NCBI RefSeq assembly: GCF_028737205.1
Contig: NZ_JAQZAL010000008.1
Location: forward strand, 124,001-188,000
Source of the DNA: Actinomycetospora lutea
GTDB lineage: Bacteria > Actinomycetota > Actinomycetes > Mycobacteriales > Pseudonocardiaceae
DNA length: 64,000 bases
Reading direction: 5' to 3'
Each line of letters begins with the position of its first letter. Within the stretch, counting starts at the first letter, position 1. Positions 35,905 to 47,083 of this stretch are shown here, piece by piece. The notes beneath the pieces were generated by a model. The model had not been told where the DNA came from and searched no databases. It saw nothing but the letters and a program-made list of their open reading frames with translations. The position numbers and the translations under genes were made by a program.

Positions 35905-36000
35905 GCAGTGCGAATAGCCCAGTGGCTGCTCAGGTGAGCCTGCGTCCGAGACTCGTCTCCGGAGGCCGCTCATCTGGGCGGCCCGTCGAGGAGGAGACGC

Positions 36001-36369
36001 ATGAGCACCACCGCTCCGGGCCCCACGTCGACCACCGGGAGCGGGCTCGCCCTCGATGCGGTCGACGCGCACCTGGTGGTGGGTCCGGACGACGGCTACG
36101 GCGGCGTCTCGCTGGTGCGGATCTCGCTGGCCCCGCACGCCCGCACCGAGCCGCGGCGCTACGACGACGCGGACCGGCTCGTGATCGTCCTGGACGGCCA
36201 CACCCGCGTCGAGGTCGAGGGCCGTCCGGCCGTCACGCTCGGACCGAACGAGGTCCTCCACGTGCCGCGGGACACCTGGCACCGCGTCGAGGCGCTCGGC
36301 GGGACGTCGGACCAGCTGGGGCTCGGCGCGGCGGAGCTGCTCGTGCTCGCCGCGGACCCTCAGCGGTAG
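36001..36369 (+). CDS. Small cupin domain protein
   Basis: 122 aa, a single double-stranded beta-helix. The second cupin motif is recognisable in VLHVPRDTWHRVEAL; the first is degenerate (DADRLVIVLDGHTRVEVEG), lacking the usual H-x-H, so metal binding is uncertain. GAGGAG lies before ATG 36001. It is divergent from the SorC regulator, probably its target. Its end overlaps the convergent repeat-protein gene by 10 bp. Confidence 0.75.
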   Translation: MSTTAPGPTSTTGSGLALDAVDAHLVVGPDDGYGGVSLVRISLAPHARTEPRRYDDADRLVIVLDGHTRVEVEGRPAVTLGPNEVLHVPRDTWHRVEALGGTSDQLGLGAAELLVLAADPQR

Positions 36370-37775
36370 AGCACGACGTCCGGCGCCGGTGGGGTCGCGA
36401 GGACCTCGCGGGCGCCCGGCCCGCCGAGCGGCAGGACGGTCCCGCGCAGGGCCGGCGGCCCCGCCTCGCCGATGGCCACGACGGCGAGCTCGGCCGGCAC
36501 GGCGGAGATCGGGCCCGTGACCACCAGGAGCTTCTGGGGCAGGTCGGCCGACCGGACCACGTCGGCGAGCCAGCCCGTCACGGCGCCCAGCTCCTCGGGC
36601 GGCAGGGGCATCGCCGTGTCGAGGGCGAGACCCACGTCGGGCTCGCGCAGCAGGCGCTCCCACGGCGCGACGGCCTCGACCACGCGGGTCGGGCCGGTCG
36701 GGACGGCGAGCACGAGCAGCTGACGGTGCGCGCGGGTCAGGGCGAGCTGCTGCCACGCGGCGCCACCACGCCCCCCGTCCGCGACCGGTAGCTCGACCGC
36801 CGGCAGCGCGTCCCGGTCGCTGGTGCCGAACGCCGTCGCGGTGGCCTCGACCCGGTCGGCCGTCTCCTCCGCGGACACCCCGGGGGTCGCCCGCAGCACG
36901 ACCACCCGGTGTTCGGGCGCGATCGTCGTCCCGCCCCGGGGCAGCTCCTGGCGCGGCGCCGGCGCCGCGGCCAGGTCCGCCCCCGCGGCCGACGCCGCGG
37001 CCACCGGTGTCGTGGGGTCGTCGGCCGGGACCACGACCGAGCCGCCGCCCAACGCCGTCACGACGGCGAGCGCGAGCGCGATCAGTCGCGGCACGATCCA
37101 CACCGCGGCCACCGCCAGCAGCGCGACCAGGAAGATCAGGAGAACGCGCCGGCGACGACGCCGCCGGTCCGCCTTCGCGGCCTTGCGCGCGGCCTCGTCG
37201 CGCGTCGCGGCCGCGCGCGCCACCGACGGCGACACCGCCTCGCCGGGCAACGTCGCGACACGTTCCTGCTCGGCCTTTTCCCGCGCCTCGCGCTCGGCCT
37301 CTTCGCGGGCTTCCTGCTCGGCTCGTTCGCGGGCTTCGCGCTCGGCTCGTTCGCGGGCTTCGCGCTCGGCCTGTTCGCGGGCTTCGCGCTCGGCCTGTTC
37401 GCGGGCTTCGCGCTCGGCGTGTTCGCGGGCTTCGCGCTCGGCGTGTTCGCGGGCTTCGCGCTCGGCGTGTTCGCGGGCTTCGCGCTCGGCGTGTTCGCGG
37501 GCTTCGCGCTCGGCCTGTTCGCGAGCTTCGCGCTCGGCCTGTTCGCGGGCTTCCTGCTCGGCCTGCTCGCGGGCTTCCTGCTCGGCCTGCTCGCGCGATT
37601 CGCGGTCGGCGTGCTCGCGCGCTTGACGCTCAGCTTGCTCGCGCGTCGGGCGCTCGGTGTCATCGGGTGAGTCGCGCGGGGCCGGCGCGAGGGTCACCTC
37701 GTCCGGTCCGCCCCACACGTCCTCGGCGTCGATCTCGGCGTCGGTGCGACGCCACCACCGGGTGCCCGCCACCAC
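36360..37775 (-). CDS. Membrane protein with 16 charged octapeptide repeats
   Basis: 471 aa. The order is: a short N-terminus; residues 45-172 as sixteen tandem octads of the form R-E-[QHR]-A-E-[RQ]-E-A; a basic run (DRRRRRRR); one membrane segment (about 211-243); and an extracytoplasmic domain of ~225 residues without a recognised fold. The alternating acidic/basic octad pattern predicts a long single alpha-helix or coiled coil of about 19 nm on the cytoplasmic side. I chose GTG 37775 because GGGAGG lies 7 nt upstream. The function is unknown. Confidence 0.8.
   Translation of the reverse strand: MVAGTRWWRRTDAEIDAEDVWGGPDEVTLAPAPRDSPDDTERPTREQAERQAREHADRESREQAEQEAREQAEQEAREQAEREAREQAEREAREHAEREAREHAEREAREHAEREAREHAEREAREQAEREAREQAEREARERAEREARERAEQEAREEAEREAREKAEQERVATLPGEAVSPSVARAAATRDEAARKAAKADRRRRRRRVLLIFLVALLAVAAVWIVPRLIALALAVVTALGGGSVVVPADDPTTPVAAASAAGADLAAAPAPRQELPRGGTTIAPEHRVVVLRATPGVSAEETADRVEATATAFGTSDRDALPAVELPVADGGRGGAAWQQLALTRAHRQLLVLAVPTGPTRVVEAVAPWERLLREPDVGLALDTAMPLPPEELGAVTGWLADVVRSADLPQKLLVVTGPISAVPAELAVVAIGEAGPPALRGTVLPLGGPGAREVLATPPAPDVVLYR
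37260..37643 (-). repeat. Sixteen tandem 24-bp repeats
   Basis: Period-24 DNA repeat (plus-strand unit similar to TTCGCGGGCTTCGCGCTCGG plus 4 nt) encoding the REQAEREA octads. Copies in the middle are nearly identical at DNA level, implying recent expansion or gene conversion. Confidence 0.9.
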
Positions 37776-37988
37776 GAGGCCACCTCCCCTCCGCCGCCGC
37801 CAGACACTCGGCCTCCCACGGCGCCCCGGCCCACGGTAGGGGGACGTTCGACGAGATCCGGCGCGCCGCGCCATGACACGCGGAGAGGTGTTCGACGCGC
37901 CACGCCCACGACCGGGCAGAGACCACGCAGCCTCGGCGACGCGGGGACACACCACCCGCGACGCGGACGCGCCGGGGAGCGATACACC

Positions 37989-39341
37989 TCAGGTGGGGAT
38001 GCGTGGTCGTCCGCCGGGTCGGGGTCGTTGGTCGGGGTCGAGGATCCAGGGTGGGGTGAACCAGGGTCGGCCCTGGTTCATATGGATGGTCCAGTGCCCG
38101 TGGTGGATCAGGTGGTGGTGGTAGCGGCAGAGCAGGCACATGTTCTGCAGGCAGGTGTCGCCGCCGTCGAGCCAGGCCTGGATGTGGTGGGCCTGGCAGC
38201 GCCGGGGTGGGCGGGTGCAGCCGGGGAACGCGCAGCCACCGTCGCGCAGGGTGAGCGCGCGGCGCAGGGCGTCGGGGGCGGTGCGTCGGCGGCGCCCGAC
38301 GTCGAGGGGCTCGGACGCGCTGCCCAGGACGACCGGGACGATGTCGGCGTCGCAGGCCCAGCGGCGCACGGTGCCGGGGTGGACCCGCAGCCCGGACTCC
38401 AGCACCCCGTAGCCGCCCTGGTCGGTCAGCGCCTGGCGCAGCCACCGGTGATCGATGGTGATCGTGAGCAACGCCCGCCCCGGGCGCTCGGGCACCGACC
38501 GGCGCTGAGCCGACCCGGCCGGCTCGGCCGGTTCGGGGCGGCGCGGCTCGGGGAGCAAGGCTTCCTCGGGCTCGGGCTCGGAGTCGACGTCGGGTTCGGG
38601 TCGGGTGCTGGTGGCCGCGCTGATCGAGTGGGCGTCGCCGACGAGGTCTTTGAGGGCCTCGATGCGGCGCAGGGCGAGGTCGCGGGTGTCGTCGGGCCCG
38701 TACGGGGCGGCGAGGTCGTCGATCACCCCCAGGAAGGCCTCGCCGTCGACGGGGTCGGACATCCGCCCGCGGAACAGCAGCGCCCCGTGGCGACGGCGGG
38801 TGACCAGCAGTTCGTCGTCTCGCCCGGCGTTCTCCTCGAGCGGTTGCTCACCGTCGGGGTCGAGGTGGGCCAGCAGCCGGTCGGCGACCGCCTGCAGCCC
38901 GCGCGGGCCCAGCCGGGTCGCCTCGTCGGCCAGGCGGCGTTCGGCCTCCAGCCACTGCTCGAGCGGCAGGCCCTCGACCCGGTCCAGGCGGCGCATCGCG
39001 GCCCGGATGATCGCCAGGTGGGCCGGGCCGATCTCCCCGCCCGCGGCGACCGTGGCGGTGCAGGCCAGCCGCGCGGGCAGCACTTCCCCGGTGAGCGAAC
39101 GGCGGAGGCACAGGTCGCGGGCCTCGCCGACCAGCCGCCTGGCCTCGACCGCGGTGATGAGCCACAGCTCTTCGAGCAGCCGCTCGGTCGACCGGTCCCC
39201 GGTGGCCTCGGCCAGCTTGCCCTGGTCGATCTCGGCGACCTGCTCCAGGCGCCGATAGGCCTCGCGGCGGCGGGTGATCTCGCCGAGGCGGGCGCGGCCC
39301 AGCACGTCCCGCTCCACCGGCCCGAGCACCCGTTCGCTCAT
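37989..39341 (-). CDS. DUF222 / HNH endonuclease domain protein
   Basis: 450 aa. The helical DUF222 domain spans about 30-270, followed by an acidic Pro-rich linker. The C-terminal HNH module has CAFPGC, a C-x2-HHIQAWLDGGDT core, N, LC-x2-HH and a final H. This is the '13E12-repeat' family, multicopy in many actinobacteria and of unclear function, possibly linked to mobile DNA. ATG 39341 follows TAGAAT (39354-39349) by 7 nt. Confidence 0.9.
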   Translation of the reverse strand: MSERVLGPVERDVLGRARLGEITRRREAYRRLEQVAEIDQGKLAEATGDRSTERLLEELWLITAVEARRLVGEARDLCLRRSLTGEVLPARLACTATVAAGGEIGPAHLAIIRAAMRRLDRVEGLPLEQWLEAERRLADEATRLGPRGLQAVADRLLAHLDPDGEQPLEENAGRDDELLVTRRRHGALLFRGRMSDPVDGEAFLGVIDDLAAPYGPDDTRDLALRRIEALKDLVGDAHSISAATSTRPEPDVDSEPEPEEALLPEPRRPEPAEPAGSAQRRSVPERPGRALLTITIDHRWLRQALTDQGGYGVLESGLRVHPGTVRRWACDADIVPVVLGSASEPLDVGRRRRTAPDALRRALTLRDGGCAFPGCTRPPRRCQAHHIQAWLDGGDTCLQNMCLLCRYHHHLIHHGHWTIHMNQGRPWFTPPWILDPDQRPRPGGRPRIPT

Positions 39342-39852
39342 GTGTTCGATTCTAGGAGGCACCCCTGACAACCCGGCCCCGTCCGCTGACCCCACCCCAG
39401 CAGATCCGCGAGGAGCCGCGTCGACCGTGGCGACCTGCCGCTCACCGCCGTCGTTCGACCACGGGCACCCCTCGCCCCTCTAGCAAGGAGCGCTAGGACC
39501 CTTTGGCAGCGGGAACCCGTTAACCACGTTGGCGATCGCGGCGAACCCGACCTCGTTCTGCAACCGCAACGAAACCTTCGCCGATTGTGCCGTCAGGTGA
39601 TGTCGCCGTCCCCCCGTGCAGTACGACATGCCCGTGGGCGTGCCCGGTGGGTCTGCACACCACCGCTACCGGGTCGGTGTCGACCGAGGACGCCGCAGCG
39701 CTCCACGGTCCGCCTCGGACGCCCGAGGTTCGGTGATGCCGTGGCCCTCGTCGAGGTCGGACCCGTGCAGTGGCCCCAACGGGCCCACGACGGGACCCGG
39801 CCGGGTCACCGTCGGGTGGATGCCGTGCTTGTGCCCTCTGTCTCGTCGCCAG
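39342..39852. other. Gene-poor stretch of 511 bp
   Basis: Apart from the -10 box of the DUF222/HNH gene (39349-39354), I find no convincing gene. The section 39480-39600 is noticeably less GC-rich. A minus-strand frame of about 47 codons near 39700-39840 could be the frame-shifted tail of the HTH remnant next door. No tRNA or repeat was recognised. Confidence 0.5.
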
Positions 39853-40017
39853 TCACCTGCGCCGCCCTCGGAGCTGCTCGCGGAGCCGCTCGACGTCCCA
39901 CCGCAGGTGACCGCCTGGCGTGATCAGGTCCGGCTGCAGAGTGCCCTCCTGGGCCCAGCGGGCCAACGAGCGCGCCGACACCCCGACCGCCTTTGCGGCC
40001 GGGACGCGGTGACGCAA
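39853..40017 (-). pseudogene. Short MerR/BldC-like HTH (probable remnant)
   Basis: A 54-codon frame from TTG 40017. It contains AAKAVGVSARSLARWAQEG followed by LITPGGHLRWDVERLREQL, a convincing MerR/BldC-type winged helix-turn-helix with its recognition helix and G-G-H wing. There is no ATG/GTG start or ribosome binding site, and a shifted frame after REQL continues as a plausible tail (EGGAGDWRRDRGHKH). It is probably a decayed or truncated DNA-binding gene; a TTG-started microprotein is the alternative. Confidence 0.45.
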
Positions 40018-40058
40018 CCACCGGCCGGGGCCTTGATCGACCCCTGGGAGGTCGACCC

Positions 40059-40181
40059 ATGTCGGAGGCTATCGCCGCCCTGATCACGGCCATGCTCGTC
40101 GGACCAGCGTGCTACTCGTGGGGCTACCGGCGGGGGCGCAAGCGGCGACCACCGACGCGACAGCGGATGACCATGCGCTGA
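40059..40181 (+). CDS. Tiny membrane protein (40 aa), RxGx(K/R)RRPP type
   Basis: ATG with GGGAGG 6 nt upstream, a strong site for so short a gene. It consists of a hydrophobic helix (about 4-21, AIAALITAMLVGPACYSW) followed by a strongly basic tail GYRRGRKRRPPTRQ. Predicted topology is N-out with the tail in the cytoplasm. It shares A-x-Y-x2-G-x-R-x-G-x-[KR]-RRPP-x-R with the protein at 42898, beyond chance for such short sequences, so the pair looks paralogous. No known family is recognised. Confidence 0.6.
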   Translation: MSEAIAALITAMLVGPACYSWGYRRGRKRRPPTRQRMTMR

Positions 40182-40348
40182 GCCGTAACGCACGCTCGGT
40201 TGCCGGGTCGAGGAGCCTCGGCGAAGCGCTCAGCTGTTGCGGCGAATAGGGCGGCTTGAACCTCGCGGGCGGGAGCTACGGGTCGGTGCGCGTGCCCGTC
40301 GTTGGCGACCCGGGATCGTCCGTGGTCATGGCGGCTCCCCCAACGACG

Positions 40349-42271
40349 TCACGTCGCTCGGTGGCGGCCGGTGCCTGCGGCGAGGTGATCGAGGCCGGTG
40401 AGGTTGAGGACCTGGCGGGCGGTCGCTCCGGGAGGCGCGATGATCCGGAGGGGATGGTGGTCCACGGTGGTCTGTTCGGCGAGCTCGTGCAGGAGCAGGA
40501 CGGCGGCGCTGCCGAGCTGGTCGACGGCGGTGAGGTCGAGGGTGACGGGAACGGCTCCGCCGCGGGTGGCGTGGTCGAGGTGGCGGCGCAGAGTTGGTGT
40601 CGTGGCCACGTCGAGGGCGCCGGTGACCCTGATCTGTAGAGGGTCGGAGCTGGTGGTCTCGATGGAGCACGGTTGCTCGGGGTCGGTGCTGTCGGACGAT
40701 GTTGGGCTGCTGACGGCGAGCACGGGGAAGCGACGCAGGGTGCGTTCCATCAGCACGACGGTTCCCGGGCCGCTGATGTCGACCTCGACGCTGTCCATGA
40801 ACTGTCGCAGCATGACCAGGCCTCGGCCGCGGACGCCGGGGTCGGCCGGTGGTGGTCGCCAGGTTCCGGTGTCGGTGACGGTGAGGCAGACGCGGCCGGC
40901 GTCGTCGAGGTAGCCGTCGACGGTGACCTTGCCGCGCCCGGCGGGGTAGGCGTGCTCGATGCAGTTGGCCACTGCTTCACCGAGGGCGAGGTGCAGGCAT
41001 TCGACGTCGTCGACGCTGGCGCCGAGGGTGTCCAGCCACACAGCGGTCTCGCGGCGCAGGGTCGCAAGCGCGCGGGCTTCGGCGGGCAGCGTGCTGTGGA
41101 AGGGCTCGAGGGCGGTAGTGGTCAGCTGACAGCCGAGCAGGCTGACGTCGTCGGTGTAGTCCTCGCGGGTCATCGCTTCGATGACCGATTCGCATACCCG
41201 GTCGACCGTCGCCCCGCCGACCGTGCTGGTGTCGCCGGCGGCGAGCGCCTCGTCGGCGCTCTGCCGCAGCTGTGCGAGCCCCGCGTCCACGCTGCGGTCG
41301 CGACGCTCGATGAGGCCGTCGGTGTAGAACAACAGCATGTCGCCGGGGGCCAGCCGGACCGTCTGCGCTGGCGGGGGTGGGCTGGCGGTACCCAGTGGGC
41401 CACCGGAGCTCTCCGGGAGGTAGTGGGCCTTGCCGCGGGCGGGCAGCAGCAACGGTGGCGGGTGGCCGCAGCAGGCGTAGGACAGCTCGCCGCTGCGGGG
41501 CTCGAGCACGGCGAGGCAGACCGTGGTCGCCGTCGCCGCGGGCCGGCGGGCCACGAACCGATCCAGCCGGGCCAGCGCCTCGGCCACGGTGGCCCCTTCG
41601 ATGAGGTAGCCGGTCAGGACCGCCCGGAGCTGGCCCATGGTGGCCGAGGCCCGCGCCCCGTGGCCCACCACGTCCCCGACGATCAGCCCCACCCGTCCCT
41701 CGAGCTGGGGGATCGCGTCGAACCAGTCCCCGCCGGCGGCGAGCTCGCTGCCGGCGACCAGGTACCGCGCCGCCAGCTGCGTGCCGGGCAGCACCGGGAG
41801 AGCGTCAGGCAGCAGGCTGCGCTGCAGGGCCACCACGACGTCCCGGGCCTGTTCGTAGTGGTGCTCGGCCTCTCGCGTGCGGGACTGCTCGGTGCGCCGT
41901 TCGGCCACCTCACGGGTCGGGTCCGTGATGTGGGCGGTGACCCCGACGACCGTGGCGTCGGTGCCGAAGTTGGGTGTGACGGTGAAGGTCCGGACGTACT
42001 CGACGGGTGACCCGCCCACGTCCTGATCGATCAGCACCTGCCGTTCGCGGACGATGACCGGCTGCGTGGTGTGGAAGGCTCGGTCGAGCAGCTCGGTCAT
42101 CCGCTGGCTCTCCACGTCGGGCACGGCCTCGCGGTACTTCCGCCCCACTATCGAGCGGTCGCCGACCATCCGGCGGGCGGCGGCGTTCGCGGCCGCCACC
42201 ACGTGCTCGGGACCGGTGAACACGAACACCGGATCGGGCTGCTGCTCGAAGCTCGCCACGACCGCGTCCAC
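40349..42271 (-). CDS. PAS - PP2C (SpoIIE/RsbU) phosphatase - RsbW-like kinase - STAS regulator
   Basis: 640 aa. Domains: PAS (about 8-115), PP2C/SpoIIE phosphatase (145-385) with GGDW (180-183), GDVVGHG (199-205) and DD (374-375), HATPase_c anti-sigma kinase (390-510) with N-box E432-x3-N436-x3-H440, DTGTW and RGRGLVML, then STAS (545-635) with candidate phospho-Ser S588 (LGSAAV). The architecture equals M. tuberculosis Rv1364c, a single-chain partner-switching stress regulator of a SigF-type factor. The GTG 42271 start lacks a good RBS. It is flanked by two tiny membrane-protein genes on the other strand. Confidence 0.9.
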   Translation of the reverse strand: MDAVVASFEQQPDPVFVFTGPEHVVAAANAAARRMVGDRSIVGRKYREAVPDVESQRMTELLDRAFHTTQPVIVRERQVLIDQDVGGSPVEYVRTFTVTPNFGTDATVVGVTAHITDPTREVAERRTEQSRTREAEHHYEQARDVVVALQRSLLPDALPVLPGTQLAARYLVAGSELAAGGDWFDAIPQLEGRVGLIVGDVVGHGARASATMGQLRAVLTGYLIEGATVAEALARLDRFVARRPAATATTVCLAVLEPRSGELSYACCGHPPPLLLPARGKAHYLPESSGGPLGTASPPPPAQTVRLAPGDMLLFYTDGLIERRDRSVDAGLAQLRQSADEALAAGDTSTVGGATVDRVCESVIEAMTREDYTDDVSLLGCQLTTTALEPFHSTLPAEARALATLRRETAVWLDTLGASVDDVECLHLALGEAVANCIEHAYPAGRGKVTVDGYLDDAGRVCLTVTDTGTWRPPPADPGVRGRGLVMLRQFMDSVEVDISGPGTVVLMERTLRRFPVLAVSSPTSSDSTDPEQPCSIETTSSDPLQIRVTGALDVATTPTLRRHLDHATRGGAVPVTLDLTAVDQLGSAAVLLLHELAEQTTVDHHPLRIIAPPGATARQVLNLTGLDHLAAGTGRHRAT

Positions 42272-42897
42272 ATCGCCGAACGCGTCCGCATCGACAGACG
42301 CCGCGCGGGCGGGCGGGGCCTCCCGCTGAGGTCTCCGGTACTCAGTGATGACCAGCCCCCCGGCTCGGCCTGCTGTGTGACGTCGAGCACGCTACCCGAA
42401 CCACGGAAGGACCGCGGCCGAGCCGAGCCGCACACCGGCACTGTTGGGATTGCGGGTTCTACGCCGGTCGACCGCCGCCCTCCACAGAACACGGAACCAC
42501 CACGGACCGTTCGGCCAGAGTGACCGCGACCGACTCGGGTCCGCGCACGAGGCACGTCCCCCGTCGAGAGGCAGGTACTCAAGAAGGGACCCTCGCGCTC
42601 GGGGAGAGAGCGGCCGAGGGCCCTCAGTTCGTGGCGTCCACGTGCGCCCAGTGGTCGTGGTACGACGTCGAGCGGTCGACCGGTGACGGTCACTCCACTC
42701 TCCGGGACCAGCGGGCTGGCGACGTGACCGCTTGCCGTGCGCGTCGAACTCGTCCGCGCCGGGGGTCTCCGAGCCCTGTCCGGGCGGCGTTACCCTCCAT
42801 CGCGACGTACCTGCGGGCCGCCTCGACTCACCGGGCACCGGCCGCAGCCGCGACTCCGACCAATGGCGCGAACGACGCCGGACGAACGGGGGACGCC
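42272..42897. other. 626-bp region without a recognised gene
   Basis: It holds the upstream regions of the phosphatase-kinase gene (minus) and of the tiny membrane-protein gene (plus). A GGGTAG on the minus strand (near 42392-42397) resembles the -10 of SigF/SigB-type promoters, but no GTTT-like -35 is found at the right distance. Codon periodicity is poor in all frames. Confidence 0.4.
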
Positions 42898-43083
42898 ATG
42901 CTTCTTGCAGCCGCTGCAGCCCTCTCGCACGCGATCTTGGGGGCGGCGCTCTACCTGATCGGTCGCCGCCACGGCGCTCGCCGACGACCACCCCAGCGTG
43001 TACGGGTCGAGCTGCCGCGCGGTCAGCATTCCCGGGCTCCCGGCCACCAGGACACGCCTCTCCTCGCACACCACGTGCGCTGA
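42898..43083 (+). CDS. Tiny membrane protein (61 aa), RxGx(K/R)RRPP type
   Basis: ATG with GGGGGA 6 nt upstream. A hydrophobic segment (MLLAAAAALSHAILGAALYL) is followed by IGRRHGARRRPPQRVRVEL and a ~25-residue His/Arg-containing tail. Its membrane helix and basic motif align without gaps to the 40-aa protein at 40059 (10 identities in the 18 positions from A-x-Y to P-x-R). The two genes bracket the PAS-phosphatase-kinase-STAS gene, suggesting a shared role. No family is known to me. Confidence 0.6.
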   Translation: MLLAAAAALSHAILGAALYLIGRRHGARRRPPQRVRVELPRGQHSRAPGHQDTPLLAHHVR

Positions 43084-43197
43084 CTGGGCGTCGCGGTCAC
43101 CGCCAAAGGGTCCCACGGTCGCCACCGCTCTATCCGGACCAAGGTGCCCTTCGCTCAGAACTCCCGAGGCTGCTCGCGCCCGCGACACCCCGCCGGC

Positions 43198-44280
43198 TCA
43201 GGCCAGTCCCAGCACCGCGAGCGTCGTGCGGGCCGCGTCGCCGCCCTCGCTCTCGGCGAGGTCGAGCGCGCCGGGCACGTCGAGGTCGTCGAGCAGCCGC
43301 TCGAGCACCGCGCCGCCGGCCACCTCCGACCCGTCGCGCCGGGCCGCCGCGGCGTAGAGCCGTTCCAGGCGCGCGGCGGCCTCGTCGAGCGCTCCCACGG
43401 TGACGTCCCACGGCTGCGCCCAGGGCCGGTCGAGCAGGAGCAGGCGCACGGCGGCGGCCGGGTGGGTCTCGAGCAGCTCGCCGACGAGCAGCAGGTTCCC
43501 CGCCGACTTGGCCATCTTCTCGCCGTCCACGCGCACCGTCCCGACGTGCAGGCGGGCGCGGGCGAACGGCGCGACCCCGGTCAGCGCCTCGACCATCGCG
43601 GCCTGCGTGGTGTGGTGCGGGTGGCGCAGGTCGGCGCCCCCGATGTGCAGGTCGACCGAGGAGCCCAGGACGGTGAGCGCCATCGCGGCGCACTCCGCGT
43701 GCCAGCCGGGGCGCCCGGCGCCCCACGGGCTGGGCCACGCGGCCTCACCCGGGGTGGCGGGTCGCCAGACGAGGGCGTCGGCGGGGTCGTCGGCGTCGGG
43801 CCAGGGCGCCTCGCTGGAGGTCTCGTCGCCGGCGAGGTCGACGGCGGGCAGGTGGGACGACCGGAACAGCACCGCCCCGTCCCGCTCGTACGCCGCGTCC
43901 CGCTCCAGCAGGCCCGCGGCGAGCGCCACGACGCCGTCGACGTGGTTGTGGGCGCGCGGCTCGTGGGTCGGCGGGCGCACCCCGAGGGCGGCCATGTCGC
44001 GGTCGAAGCGGAACTGCCCCACCGCGGCGAAGCTGTCGAACCGCGCCCCGGCCCGCTCGGCGGCGGCGTCGAGGACGTCGTCGACGTCGGTGACGTTGCG
44101 GCAGCTGATCACCTCGATGCCGATGCGCCGCAGCACGCGGGCGGCGACGTCCGCCCACACGAAGGTGGAGGCGTGACCGAGGTGGGTGGTGTCGTAGGGC
44201 GTGATCCCGCAGATGTAGGCGCGGGCGCGCCCCACCAGTGGCAGCGGTGCGCCGGCCAGGCGCAGCGACGGGATCGTCAC
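43198..44280 (-). CDS. MshC-like cysteine ligase (CysRS-type fold)
   Basis: 360 aa. Class I synthetase core: YICGITPYDTTHLGHASTFV (HIGH region), GWHAECAAMAL and HIGGADLRHPHH zinc/substrate motifs, and KMAKSAGN (KMSKS). It lacks the tRNA-binding C-terminus of CysRS, as in MshC, which joins Cys to GlcN-Ins in mycothiol synthesis. It is about 50 residues shorter than typical MshC, so it could be a divergent paralogue. GTG 44280 has GGAGG 6 nt upstream and overlaps the LapA-like stop. Confidence 0.7.
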   Translation of the reverse strand: MTIPSLRLAGAPLPLVGRARAYICGITPYDTTHLGHASTFVWADVAARVLRRIGIEVISCRNVTDVDDVLDAAAERAGARFDSFAAVGQFRFDRDMAALGVRPPTHEPRAHNHVDGVVALAAGLLERDAAYERDGAVLFRSSHLPAVDLAGDETSSEAPWPDADDPADALVWRPATPGEAAWPSPWGAGRPGWHAECAAMALTVLGSSVDLHIGGADLRHPHHTTQAAMVEALTGVAPFARARLHVGTVRVDGEKMAKSAGNLLLVGELLETHPAAAVRLLLLDRPWAQPWDVTVGALDEAAARLERLYAAAARRDGSEVAGGAVLERLLDDLDVPGALDLAESEGGDAARTTLAVLGLA

Positions 44281-44705
44281 CGGGTCCTCCCCGTACGCCG
44301 GGCCGCCCGGCGCCACTGCACCATCCGCCCGAGTCCGGGGATGGCGAGCAGGAGCACCCCGGCGATCGCGGCGAACAGCAGCCAGATGCCGAGCGGCAGG
44401 GTGGCCTCCAGGCCGAGGAACACGACGCGGGCCGGGTCGAGGTTCTGGAGGATGAAGACCAGCAGGAACACGAGCACCACGGCGCCGAGGATCAGCCCGA
44501 TCCAGGCGCCCCCGATCCGCGTGCGGCCCGGCGACGTCCGGACCCGCGGGCGCGCGGCGGCCGCCCCGTCCGGGATCGTCACGGGCTCCGAGGGCGGCCC
44601 GGACGGACGATCACCGGCCAGCTCGGCCCGCGTCACCGCGCCGGTGCCGGGCGTGGTGGGCCCGTCGGCGGGCGACGGCGCGCCGTACCGGGACTGCTCG
44701 CTCAT
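44277..44705 (-). CDS. LapA/DUF1049 domain membrane protein
   Basis: 142 aa. A disordered Pro/Gly-rich N-terminus (1-65) precedes two membrane helices (IGLILGAVVLVFLLVFILQN and LPLGIWLLFAAIAGVLLLAI), with the short ARVVFLGLEAT link typical of LapA-domain proteins and a basic C-terminus. Its stop overlaps the ligase GTG. The role is unknown. Confidence 0.75.
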   Translation of the reverse strand: MSEQSRYGAPSPADGPTTPGTGAVTRAELAGDRPSGPPSEPVTIPDGAAAARPRVRTSPGRTRIGGAWIGLILGAVVLVFLLVFILQNLDPARVVFLGLEATLPLGIWLLFAAIAGVLLLAIPGLGRMVQWRRAARRTGRTR

Positions 44706-44854
44706 ACCCGCCATCTTCGCGCGTCCCGGCGCCGGGCGTGAGCCCGGGCGAGCGCCGTCCTCGACCAGAAGCGTTGATGATCGCAACACGACTCATCATG
44801 TCGTCGACATATGGCTCCGGCCCGCCCACCCGCGTCTGGCGGCCGCCGGCTGCC

Positions 44855-45772
44855 TCACACCGCCACGGCCTCCATGAGGTGGCGCGTCGCGCCCACCGGG
44901 ACCGTGTCGACGAGACGCAACCCCGCGCGCTCGAACACGACCCGCCACTCGGGCGCCGTCCGCTCACGCCCCCCGTTCGACACCAGCATCATGAGGTCGA
45001 GGAACTTCGTGAGCGGGTCCTCGCCGGGTGGCCCGACGACCGCGTCGACGACGAGCACGCGGCCCTCCGGCCCGAGCGCGTCCCGGGCCGTGTGCAGGAT
45101 CCGGACGGCGTCGTCGTCCGGCCAGTCGTGCAGCACCGCCGGGGCGCCGGCCACCACGTGTTCCTGGTCGGCGAGCACCCCCCGCACCCCGGGGTACGCG
45201 GCGAGCACGGCGGCGAGGACCGCGCCCGTGCCGCCGCCGACGTCGGCCAGGCACCCGTACCGCCCGAAGTCGTGGCCCACGACGAGGCGCGCGGAGTCGG
45301 CGCGGGAGAAGGTGCGCATCGCGGCGTCGAAGAGCTCGCCCTGCTCCGGGTGCTGCCGGCGGTACTCCCAGACGTCCATGCCGAGGGCGTGCTCGGCCGC
45401 CGTCTCGCCGGTCCGCACGGTGTGCGGGAGGTCGCCCCAGGCCCGCCACTCGTCGTCGGCGCCGAACATGCGGGCCGCCGGGTCGACCGAGAGCGGGTGG
45501 TCGCGGCGCAGGTACTCGCCCATCGCCGTCAGGGCGAACCGCCCGTCGTCGTCCTCGGCGAACACCCCGATCGCGGCCAGCGCGCGCAGGAGCCGGTAGA
45601 GCGTCGGGCCGTGGCTGCCCGTCGCCGCCGCGAGGCTCGCGACGTCACGCGGTCCGTCACGCAGCAGGTCGGCGACACCGAGCTGCGCCGCGACCGTGAC
45701 GGCGCGCGAGCGCTCGTAGCCGCGCACGATGCCCAGCAGGTCCAGGTACTCCTGCGACGTCACCTCGGACAC
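44855..45772 (-). CDS. SAM-dependent O-methyltransferase (family 2), internally shortened
   Basis: 305 aa. It has the N-terminal winged-helix dimerisation domain (YERSRAVTVAAQLGVADLL...TLYRLLRALAAIGVF) and the SAM-binding LADVGGGTGAVLAAVL. After HVVAGA it jumps directly to VLHDWPDDDAVRIL; relatives have about 45 residues here, including the second SAM motif (GDFF region). So the fold probably lacks two strands and may be inactive. GTG 45772 has GGGGGAAG upstream. No pathway neighbours are seen. Confidence 0.75.
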   Translation of the reverse strand: MSEVTSQEYLDLLGIVRGYERSRAVTVAAQLGVADLLRDGPRDVASLAAATGSHGPTLYRLLRALAAIGVFAEDDDGRFALTAMGEYLRRDHPLSVDPAARMFGADDEWRAWGDLPHTVRTGETAAEHALGMDVWEYRRQHPEQGELFDAAMRTFSRADSARLVVGHDFGRYGCLADVGGGTGAVLAAVLAAYPGVRGVLADQEHVVAGAPAVLHDWPDDDAVRILHTARDALGPEGRVLVVDAVVGPPGEDPLTKFLDLMMLVSNGGRERTAPEWRVVFERAGLRLVDTVPVGATRHLMEAVAV

Positions 45773-45860
45773 GGCTTCCCCCCGTCCTCGCGGCGACCAG
45801 CATCCACCCGGGGCTCGCGCAACGACAGGGTCGATCAGCAGGGTCGATCAGCAGGGTCGG

Positions 45861-46211
45861 TCAGCGCGCCACGGCCACCGTCACCCCGCGTCCGCGGCGC
45901 TTGGGCGTCACGAGCACACCGTCGCCGCCCTGGTCGCGGGCCGCGAGCAGGGCGGCCGCCTCGGCGACGCTGCCGGTGCCGGTGAGGCGGCGGACGACGG
46001 CCGAGGGGCTGGGGACGTCGACGGTGTCGAGCACGCTCGCGGGGTAGGTCCGCAGCAGGCGCCCGGACGCGAGGGCCACGACCGCCGGCTCCGCACCCCG
46101 CGTGTCGATCGTCGCGAGCACGTCGAACCCGGGCAGCGCGAGCGCCGAGACCGCCTCCTGCAGGTGCGCCGGCGGCGTGCCCGGCTCGATCCCGACACCC
46201 AGGACCAGCAT
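45861..46211 (-). CDS. CbiG/CobE C-terminal domain-like cobalamin protein
   Basis: 116 aa. The sequence LVLGVGIEPGTPPAHLQEAV and the ATIDTRGAEPAVVALA strand-helix match the CobE/CbiG_C fold used in cobalamin ring chemistry. It follows the hydrolase by 14 bp and lies at the end of the chelatase-cobO-cobB operon, supporting a cobalamin role. GTG 46214 directly before the ATG is an alternative start. Confidence 0.7.
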   Translation of the reverse strand: MLVLGVGIEPGTPPAHLQEAVSALALPGFDVLATIDTRGAEPAVVALASGRLLRTYPASVLDTVDVPSPSAVVRRLTGTGSVAEAAALLAARDQGGDGVLVTPKRRGRGVTVAVAR

Positions 46212-46225
46212 CACGGGACCGGCAT

Positions 46226-47083
46226 CTACGGCGTCACCAGGGCGTCGAGCACGTCGGCGACGTGGTCCTGGATCGAGAGGTGTCCGGTGCCGGGCAGGCG
46301 GTGCAGGCGCCCGACGCCGGCCGGCAGACGGGAGGCGATGTCCTCGGCGTGGTGCATCGGCACCATGGCGTCGTCCTCGCCCTGGAAGATCTCGACCGGC
46401 GCCGTGATCGCCGCCCAGTCGAGGTGCCACGGGCTCGCCCAGAGCCGGTACTCCTCCATGACGCCCGCGGGGCCCTGGCGCAGCGACTCCACGAAGAACG
46501 ACATCTCCTCGTGGGGCGAGCGGCGGGCGAGGAACTCGCGGTCGGGCTCCGTGAGCTCCGCGGAGATCTGCGAGATCGCGGTCGTGGGCGCCACCCGTGA
46601 CGCCCACTTCTGCAGGCGCAGCATCATCGCCTCGCGCCGGGGGTGGTCGTCGAGGCCGTCGAGCATCTCGAGGTCGGACGGCGCGAGACCCTCGCGTGCA
46701 CCCGGACGGTCGTCGATCGGGCCCGCGCCCGCCATGAGCGCCGTGCCCGTGAGCCGGGGCCCGCAGCCGGCGGCGCAGGACAGCGCGAACGGGCCGCCCG
46801 CGGAGTAGCCGACGGTCGCGAAGCGGTCGATGCCGAGGGCGTCGGCCAGCGCGAGGATCTCCGCCGCGTAGCCCGCGATCGTGCGGCCGGGCACCGGGTC
46901 GGAGCGCCCGATGCCGCCGCGGTCGGGGCAGAGGACCCGCAGCCCACGCTCGCGCGCAGGCCCGTCGGTGAACTCCTTGCCCAGGCGGCTGTCGGGCGTG
47001 CCGTGGAAGAAGAAGACCGGCGCGCCCGCCGGATCGCCGTGCTCCGCGAGGGCGACGGTGCGCCCGTGGACGGTGACGGTCAC
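46226..47083 (-). CDS. Alpha/beta hydrolase
   Basis: 285 aa. The nucleophile elbow GYSAGG, an oxyanion-hole FHGTPDSR loop, a late acid region (FQGEDDAMVP) and catalytic His in GTGHLSIQDH are all visible, so the triad is complete. The GTG overlaps the cobB stop (GTGA), placing it in the cob operon, but nothing known in cobalamin synthesis needs such an enzyme. The substrate is unknown. Confidence 0.85.
   Translation of the reverse strand: MTVTVHGRTVALAEHGDPAGAPVFFFHGTPDSRLGKEFTDGPARERGLRVLCPDRGGIGRSDPVPGRTIAGYAAEILALADALGIDRFATVGYSAGGPFALSCAAGCGPRLTGTALMAGAGPIDDRPGAREGLAPSDLEMLDGLDDHPRREAMMLRLQKWASRVAPTTAISQISAELTEPDREFLARRSPHEEMSFFVESLRQGPAGVMEEYRLWASPWHLDWAAITAPVEIFQGEDDAMVPMHHAEDIASRLPAGVGRLHRLPGTGHLSIQDHVADVLDALVTP

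Follow-up and report, generated by a model that had tools for sequence, protein, structure and literature searches.

Membrane proteins carried by prophages of actinobacteria have been described as exclusion factors, those in the cited accounts being of a four-segment type (PMC6426596, PMC7542560), and some mycobacteriophages are described as having integration-dependent immunity and divergent gene pairs (PMC4557955). A membrane peptide that feeds back on PhoQ has been described (PMC2789325), Rv1364c is given as a protein with the domain order PAS-PP2C-kinase-STAS (PMC7693655), and accessory peptides of a regulator would work much as the PhoQ peptide does. Here we consider a stretch of 64,000 nucleotides (nt) from Actinomycetospora lutea (contig NZ_JAQZAL010000008.1, positions 124,001 to 188,000; hereafter the window), in which two plus-strand open reading frames (ORFs), one at 40059 of 40 amino acids (aa) and one at 42898 of 61 aa, lie on either side of a minus-strand PAS-phosphatase-kinase-STAS gene. 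The places and strands of these ORFs are as the initial annotation had them, and coordinates and domain matches confirm the flanking arrangement. The same annotation proposed that the two peptides, termed A and B below, could recruit or sense for the regulator between them, or be stress effectors that it controls. On balance our data point elsewhere: A and B probably belong to a family, so far undescribed, of tiny single-pass membrane proteins that moves within Actinomycetospora as mobile or prophage cargo, and the regulator is probably a bystander.

Relatedness and coding evidence

A and B run in register without gaps across positions 1-40, and have in common (one-to-one numbering) M1, A4, A6, A7 and G15 as well as ten residues of a shared motif; the ungapped match of 10 identities in 18 positions claimed over A17-R34 was reproduced. 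When A was used as a single query against its own genome (G000, a 6.5-Mb draft), window B ranked fourth with an expectation value (E) of 8.9e-4, behind A itself, a fragment on contig C30 and a B copy on contig C70, and the next match had an E of 0.078. A profile of six B members, searched against six-frame ORFs of the fetched loci, found A at 7.8e-6 and the relative of A in genome G015 at 3.2e-6; the best match in this set that was neither a member nor a relic scored 0.012. The reverse search is less clean: a two-sequence A profile gives E values of 3.8e-8 to 1.3e-3 for the intact B copies, and it scores an unrelated ORF in L029 (7.4e-4) above the G008 copy (1.3e-3). The likeness of A and B exceeds chance, and the two types are bridged by the tail of the G015 A peptide, RRRPPRRVQLTL (its C-terminal end given as RRRPPRRVQLTLR), which is identical at 9 of 12 positions to RRRPPRRVRVQL of the G005 B copy.

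Each peptide has a single hydrophobic stretch (best 19-residue Kyte-Doolittle mean 1.48 for A and 1.93 for B) and a net charge of +8, and AlphaFold2 predicts for seven B sequences a single helix over residues 2-27 followed by low-confidence coil (mean predicted local distance difference test score 74). Alignment, profile searches and hydropathy thus uphold the description of A and B as related, tiny, single-helix and basic-tailed. Of the good ribosome binding sites claimed for both, that of A stands, while B has the weaker site (Table 1). A short hydrophobic helix joined to the motif GxxxGxxRRPxxR characterises ten A/B family sequences, among which the motif is invariant and one, the metagenome protein P0004, is without the usual helix start; the fuller motif GxRxGxRRRPxxRVR is present in seven B copies and is not found in the G015 relative of A.

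Six intact relatives of B occur outside the window (on C70 of G000, and in G002, G005, G008, G010 and G017), which with the window copy makes seven, in 6 of 18 genus genomes. This count omits three decayed copies (two in G006 and one on contig C13 of G002); the C30 sequence of G000 is a fragment of the A type. Over the 21 pairs of the seven sequences, differences within a 38-codon core number 168 at the first codon position, 130 at the second and 373 at the third (sums to which related pairs contribute non-independently), and in a column permutation of six B sequences none of 100,000 replicates was as extreme in position-3 variation. The ratio of nonsynonymous to synonymous change (dN/dS) is 0.18-0.41 in all but one of the 21 pairs, the exception being the near-identical G017-G002 pair, which carries synonymous changes only. 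B is a real gene, and its helix-plus-tail core (GxRxGxRRRPxxRVRxxL) is under purifying selection. Conservation of frame in relatives, which the initial annotation had named as a check on both peptides, is therefore borne out for B by the six intact copies elsewhere, the codon-position excess and the dN/dS values; for A it holds to the extent that a relative of equal length exists in G015, a codon-position excess not being evident in that one pair.

Nineteen residues are invariant in the seven B copies (window numbering: L2, L3, A6, S10, H11, G15, A16, Y19, G22, R24, G26, R28, R29, R30, P31, R34, V35, R36 and L39). In the tail (22-39) they take up 11 of 18 positions, against 8 of 20 in the helix (2-21). 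Past the core the C-terminal part is variable: the G005 copy has an early stop, and the last ~20 residues of window B are read in a different frame from that of most family members, owing to a 2-nt length difference. Upstream of the B copies of G002, G005, G008, G010 and G017, some 57-77 nt before the start, there is a box, TTCG-N8-GGTAAC[GA] (for example at L057:8061-8080), which is diverged in the window copy and is possibly a promoter or operator.

Could A and B be chance ORFs of GC-rich DNA, their likeness arising from a shared Arg/Pro/Ala composition? A GC content of 70-80% does make long open frames and RRRPP-like strings common, the codon signal of A is weak taken alone, and in the A-profile search one B copy scores below an unrelated ORF. 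We nonetheless consider this explanation very improbable, given the codon-position and dN/dS signal of B, the genome-wide rank of the A/B match, and the 9 of 12 positions at which RRRPPRRVQLTL of G015 A agrees with RRRPPRRVRVQL of G005 B; for B itself the codon-position excess and dN/dS refute it.

The claim that no described family accommodates these peptides also stood, since searches of Pfam, PHROGs, NCBIfam and PADLOC with A and B gave nothing above cut-off (the best Pfam match for B, TraL_transposon, is below cut-off at E = 0.11). Single-sequence searches of protein databases gave no match for either peptide. The B profile retrieved two short hypothetical proteins from metagenomes, whose identity to the first query sequence is 80% and 62%. 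Among 390 genomes of the taxonomic family, with 17 candidates scored per genome, strong B matches are confined to the genus; weak ones outside it occur in four genomes (E 1.6e-4 to 7.8e-4) within open frames of 162-2765 aa, and a weak match in G009 (E 9.5e-4) lies likewise in such a frame. Among the open-access papers listed on Actinomycetospora small proteins and on tiny prophage or toxin membrane proteins, no title or opening of an abstract describes the A/B family.

Genomic settings of A and B

Across species, B copies mostly have unrelated neighbourhoods. Beyond the gene itself, G002 and G017 share an 812-bp block (95% identity) and the two G006 copies a 1.2-kb block; other likeness among the loci amounts to up to ~110 bp of 5' DNA plus short scattered matches. 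The G008 copy lies near a response regulator and a Ser/Thr kinase, the G010 copy near a patatin and an extracytoplasmic function (ECF) sigma factor, and the remaining copies have mixed or unrecognised neighbours; judged by position, the neighbour genes of G008 and G010 are present in other genomes at places without B. Stand-alone loci of this kind bring to mind a type I toxin, that is, a tiny peptide that depolarises its producer, is restrained by an antisense RNA and spreads as a locus of its own. The size, the single helix, the cationic tail, the several stand-alone and decayed copies and the ~95-110 nt of 5' DNA conserved between some B pairs all accord with such a toxin. A shared RNA fold is unsupported (the covariation term, +1.38, is unfavourable), and the greater density of invariant residues in the tail than in the helix suggests a specific binding partner, so that we regard a toxin as improbable.

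The single full relative of A, in G015, is 55% identical over 40 codons with its stop aligned, and similarity fades past the stop. Its gene, on the minus strand, diverges from that of a 61-aa MerR-like, excisionase-like helix-turn-helix (HTH) protein whose phage relatives are mostly annotated as excise, excisionase, HTH, DNA-binding or MerR-like (transposase in four records). The genes of the region run in the order terminase, portal, major head protein, connectors, tail sheath, tail tube, tape measure, baseplate wedge, endolysin (with an Rv2525c glycoside-hydrolase-like domain), A, HTH gene, resolvase-family recombinase and FtsK-like gene. By its gene content the region appears prophage-like. 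Window DNA matches that of G015 at 85% identity across 148 nt of the HTH gene, and at 74% across 152 nt spanning the upstream and first part of A; ~139 nt of G015 sequence, including the first 13 codons of the HTH gene, are missing from the window, more likely through loss there than through gain in G015. Judged from these alignments, the A-HTH pair of the window is a decayed copy of the G015 prophage-like pair.

Since the G015 A gene sits ~1.3 kb past the endolysin gene, on the opposite strand, A and B might be real mobile membrane peptides that serve in lysis, for instance as a helper of that endolysin, or in the upkeep of mobile DNA. This is distinctly improbable: the relative of A is divergent to the excisionase-like HTH gene and not in line with the lysis gene, and beside the B copies no lysis gene was recognised among the neighbours scanned.

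Several weaker candidates were set aside. A second HTH relative in the window's own genome (L016) has nearby an A-profile match at chance level only (E = 0.09); weak phage matches to G015 A (E = 0.6 or worse) were taken as chance, and a match on contig C12 of G015 was dropped as such, together with other weak A matches among those listed. On the same strand downstream of A in the G015 prophage-like region there is a 61-aa ORF with a C-terminal hydrophobic stretch (L063:5659-5844, minus strand), which has no PHROGs match.

In the window, A, the regulator and B fall within a block that is missing at this place in relatives, with a synteny break on each side. Five of six aligned longer loci lack it, the junction lying within 8-100 nt, and the sixth (G015) does not align. 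In G011, which has the DUF222 gene at the same place as the window, that gene and the right-flank ligase gene are ~55 nt apart; G005, G006, G009 and G017 have no DUF222 gene here, and the next gene joins the ligase gene within 8-100 nt. The ligase gene is present in 16 of 18 genus genomes, and at its 16 other loci, in 15 genomes, no A, B or regulator lies within ~1.5 kb.

Table 1. Features of the locus (positions in the window)
Feature	Position	Strand	Remarks
Peptide A	40059-40181	+	40 aa; ATG start; upstream GGGAGG; hydrophobic stretch, then GYRRGRKRRPPTRQRMTMR
Peptide B	42898-43083	+	61 aa; ATG start; upstream GGGGGA (weaker site); predicted helix 2-27, then GRRHGARRRPPQRVRVEL
PAS-SpoIIE-HATPase-STAS regulator	40349-42271	-	640 aa; PAS_4, SpoIIE, HATPase_c_2, STAS_2; neighbour, outside the A/B family
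HTH remnant (MerR/excisionase-like)	39853-40017	-	divergent to A; first 13 residues of the G015 protein gone
Block missing here in relatives	39412-43124	.	boundaries approximate; ~55 nt in G011
Left flank, DUF222 gene	37989-39395	-	common to window and G011 at this place
Right flank, CysS/MshC-like ligase gene	43198-44316	-	conserved; below both NCBIfam cut-offs

The ligase gene scores 242.9 of 340 bits against the NCBIfam CysS model and 242.4 of 485.1 bits against that for MshC; the name mshC was withdrawn on this account. No convincing pair of repeats was found at the block ends, no tRNA in 36000-47000, and nothing above shuffles in a promoter and terminator scan. Beside the ligase gene, at 43141-43155, stands AAGGTGCCCTTCGCT, which is also at this place in G011; CAAGGTGCCCTTCGCTC, with at most one mismatch, recurs as a motif with nine genome matches (none for the reversed control). 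On the minus strand at 36360-37955 there is a protein with a long EQAEREAREHAEREARE-type repeat ahead of a hydrophobic stretch; in relatives, the DNA of this part gives numerous overlapping self-similar matches.

The intervening regulator gene

If A and B were accessory membrane peptides or effectors of the regulator, as a peptide is of PhoQ, they might be expected beside other genes of its type. Regulator relatives were taken at E <= 1e-60, which gave 31 matches besides the window; loci were obtained for 29, two being left out. At none of these 29, where the contig allowed, does A or B lie within ~1.5 kb (a match near a regulator in L068 is at chance level, E 0.6-0.8), and at E 1e-5 the regulator is absent from all 11 A/B stretches fetched outside the window (6.6-15 kb, some at contig ends). 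The closest relative of the window regulator, at 70% amino acid identity, is in G015, ~1.6 Mb from the A gene of that genome, and neither A nor B adjoins it. Regulators of this type occur in G011 and G009, which have no credible A/B copy; G010 combines an intact B with regulator matches that are partial only, and G006 two decayed B copies with no regulator match at E 1e-60.

The co-occurrence with Rv1364c-like genes that the initial annotation had suggested looking for was seen, among the loci examined, at the window locus only, and its proposals of recruitment, sensing or control find no support. An accessory role can draw on the position of A and B on either side of the regulator gene, and on three B loci near signalling genes (that of the window, that of G008 with its response regulator and kinase, and that of G010 with its ECF sigma factor). 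Against it, besides the 29 regulator loci and the fetched A/B loci elsewhere, stand the prophage-like region that holds the relative of A, and the signalling neighbours themselves, which differ in kind and among the genes scanned were recognised at no other B locus. An accessory role is the least probable of the explanations considered, and the PAS-SpoIIE-STAS gene is best read as a bystander in the same hotspot. In G015 (L137; G015:C9:222000-235000) the regulator relative adjoins a second paralogue of the PAS-SpoIIE-STAS type.

Proposed role and comparison with known systems

The regulator loci without A or B, the unlike B neighbourhoods and the empty site together make separate arrivals in one insertion hotspot the best reading of the bracket that A and B form, the block that holds them and the regulator being a putative insertion. 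In the mobile or prophage-cargo family that we favour, the N-terminal helix would span the cytoplasmic membrane and, by the positive-inside rule, the Arg-rich tail would be cytoplasmic. Because the invariant residues are densest in the tail, the tail may bind a specific partner, and through this binding it would alter a membrane process. Prophage residence and mobility make phage-host conflict the likeliest setting for such cargo, which could act in superinfection exclusion or as some other membrane-active effector; taken by itself this step is tentative, with the odds somewhat against it. A and B may accordingly be described as candidate membrane-acting effectors, perhaps in phage exclusion. 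In a bolder version, which is unlikely, a one-gene module (the gene plus ~100 bp of its own 5' DNA) would wander alone between loci of the genus, sometimes in prophages, and would use its conserved cationic tail to work as a single-gene phage-exclusion factor or a self-acting membrane effector. If true, actinobacteria would have a compact class of conflict gene that is readily overlooked owing to its short frames.

A number of observations weigh against the favoured reading. A prophage context is seen for the G015 relative of A alone, and among the B loci for none; searches of phage records (A and B), plasmid records (B) and IMG/VR contigs turned up no family member; and the surroundings of the 3.7-kb block yielded no element ends, integrase or attachment repeats. 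A against its G015 relative gives a dN/dS of ~0.58, with 13, 14 and 18 differences by codon position in one pair alone. The restriction to the genus rests on the 17 candidates scored per genome, or on the matches listed, and phage exclusion on context and analogy.

With this locus a little-studied genus gains a family of very small membrane proteins that is undescribed and has support from selection, one member being tied to a prophage, and the locus illustrates that a tidy layout of two paralogues around a regulator can stem from separate arrivals in an insertion hotspot. The family is new; its kind is already known. MgrB is the membrane peptide that feeds back on PhoQ, and its pairing with PhoQ differs from the case of A and B, for which no co-occurrence with the regulator was seen beyond the window locus. 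The HTH protein beside A has relatives in the MerR-like excisionase region of Brujita, Babsiella and Popper (45-54% identity over ~41-49 residues), and in Popper and Babsiella the HTH gene and a leftward gene diverge, as the HTH gene and A do in G015; in the phages, however, the divergent gene is a Cro or repressor and not a tiny membrane peptide, and phage records hold no convincing relative of A (best E = 0.6). The domain make-up given for Rv1364c resembles that of the window regulator, a likeness that concerns the neighbour gene and not A or B. DinQ, LdrA and TimP, described as type I toxins or toxic peptides, are like A and B tiny single-helix membrane peptides, but A and B are without a supported RNA fold. 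Sbash gp31, Butters gp31 and RexB-like proteins are, like the relative of A, membrane proteins carried by actinobacterial prophages (PMC6426596, PMC7542560); those are described as having four membrane-spanning segments and a partner protein in the cytoplasm, whereas A and B have one segment and no partner gene is common to the B loci.

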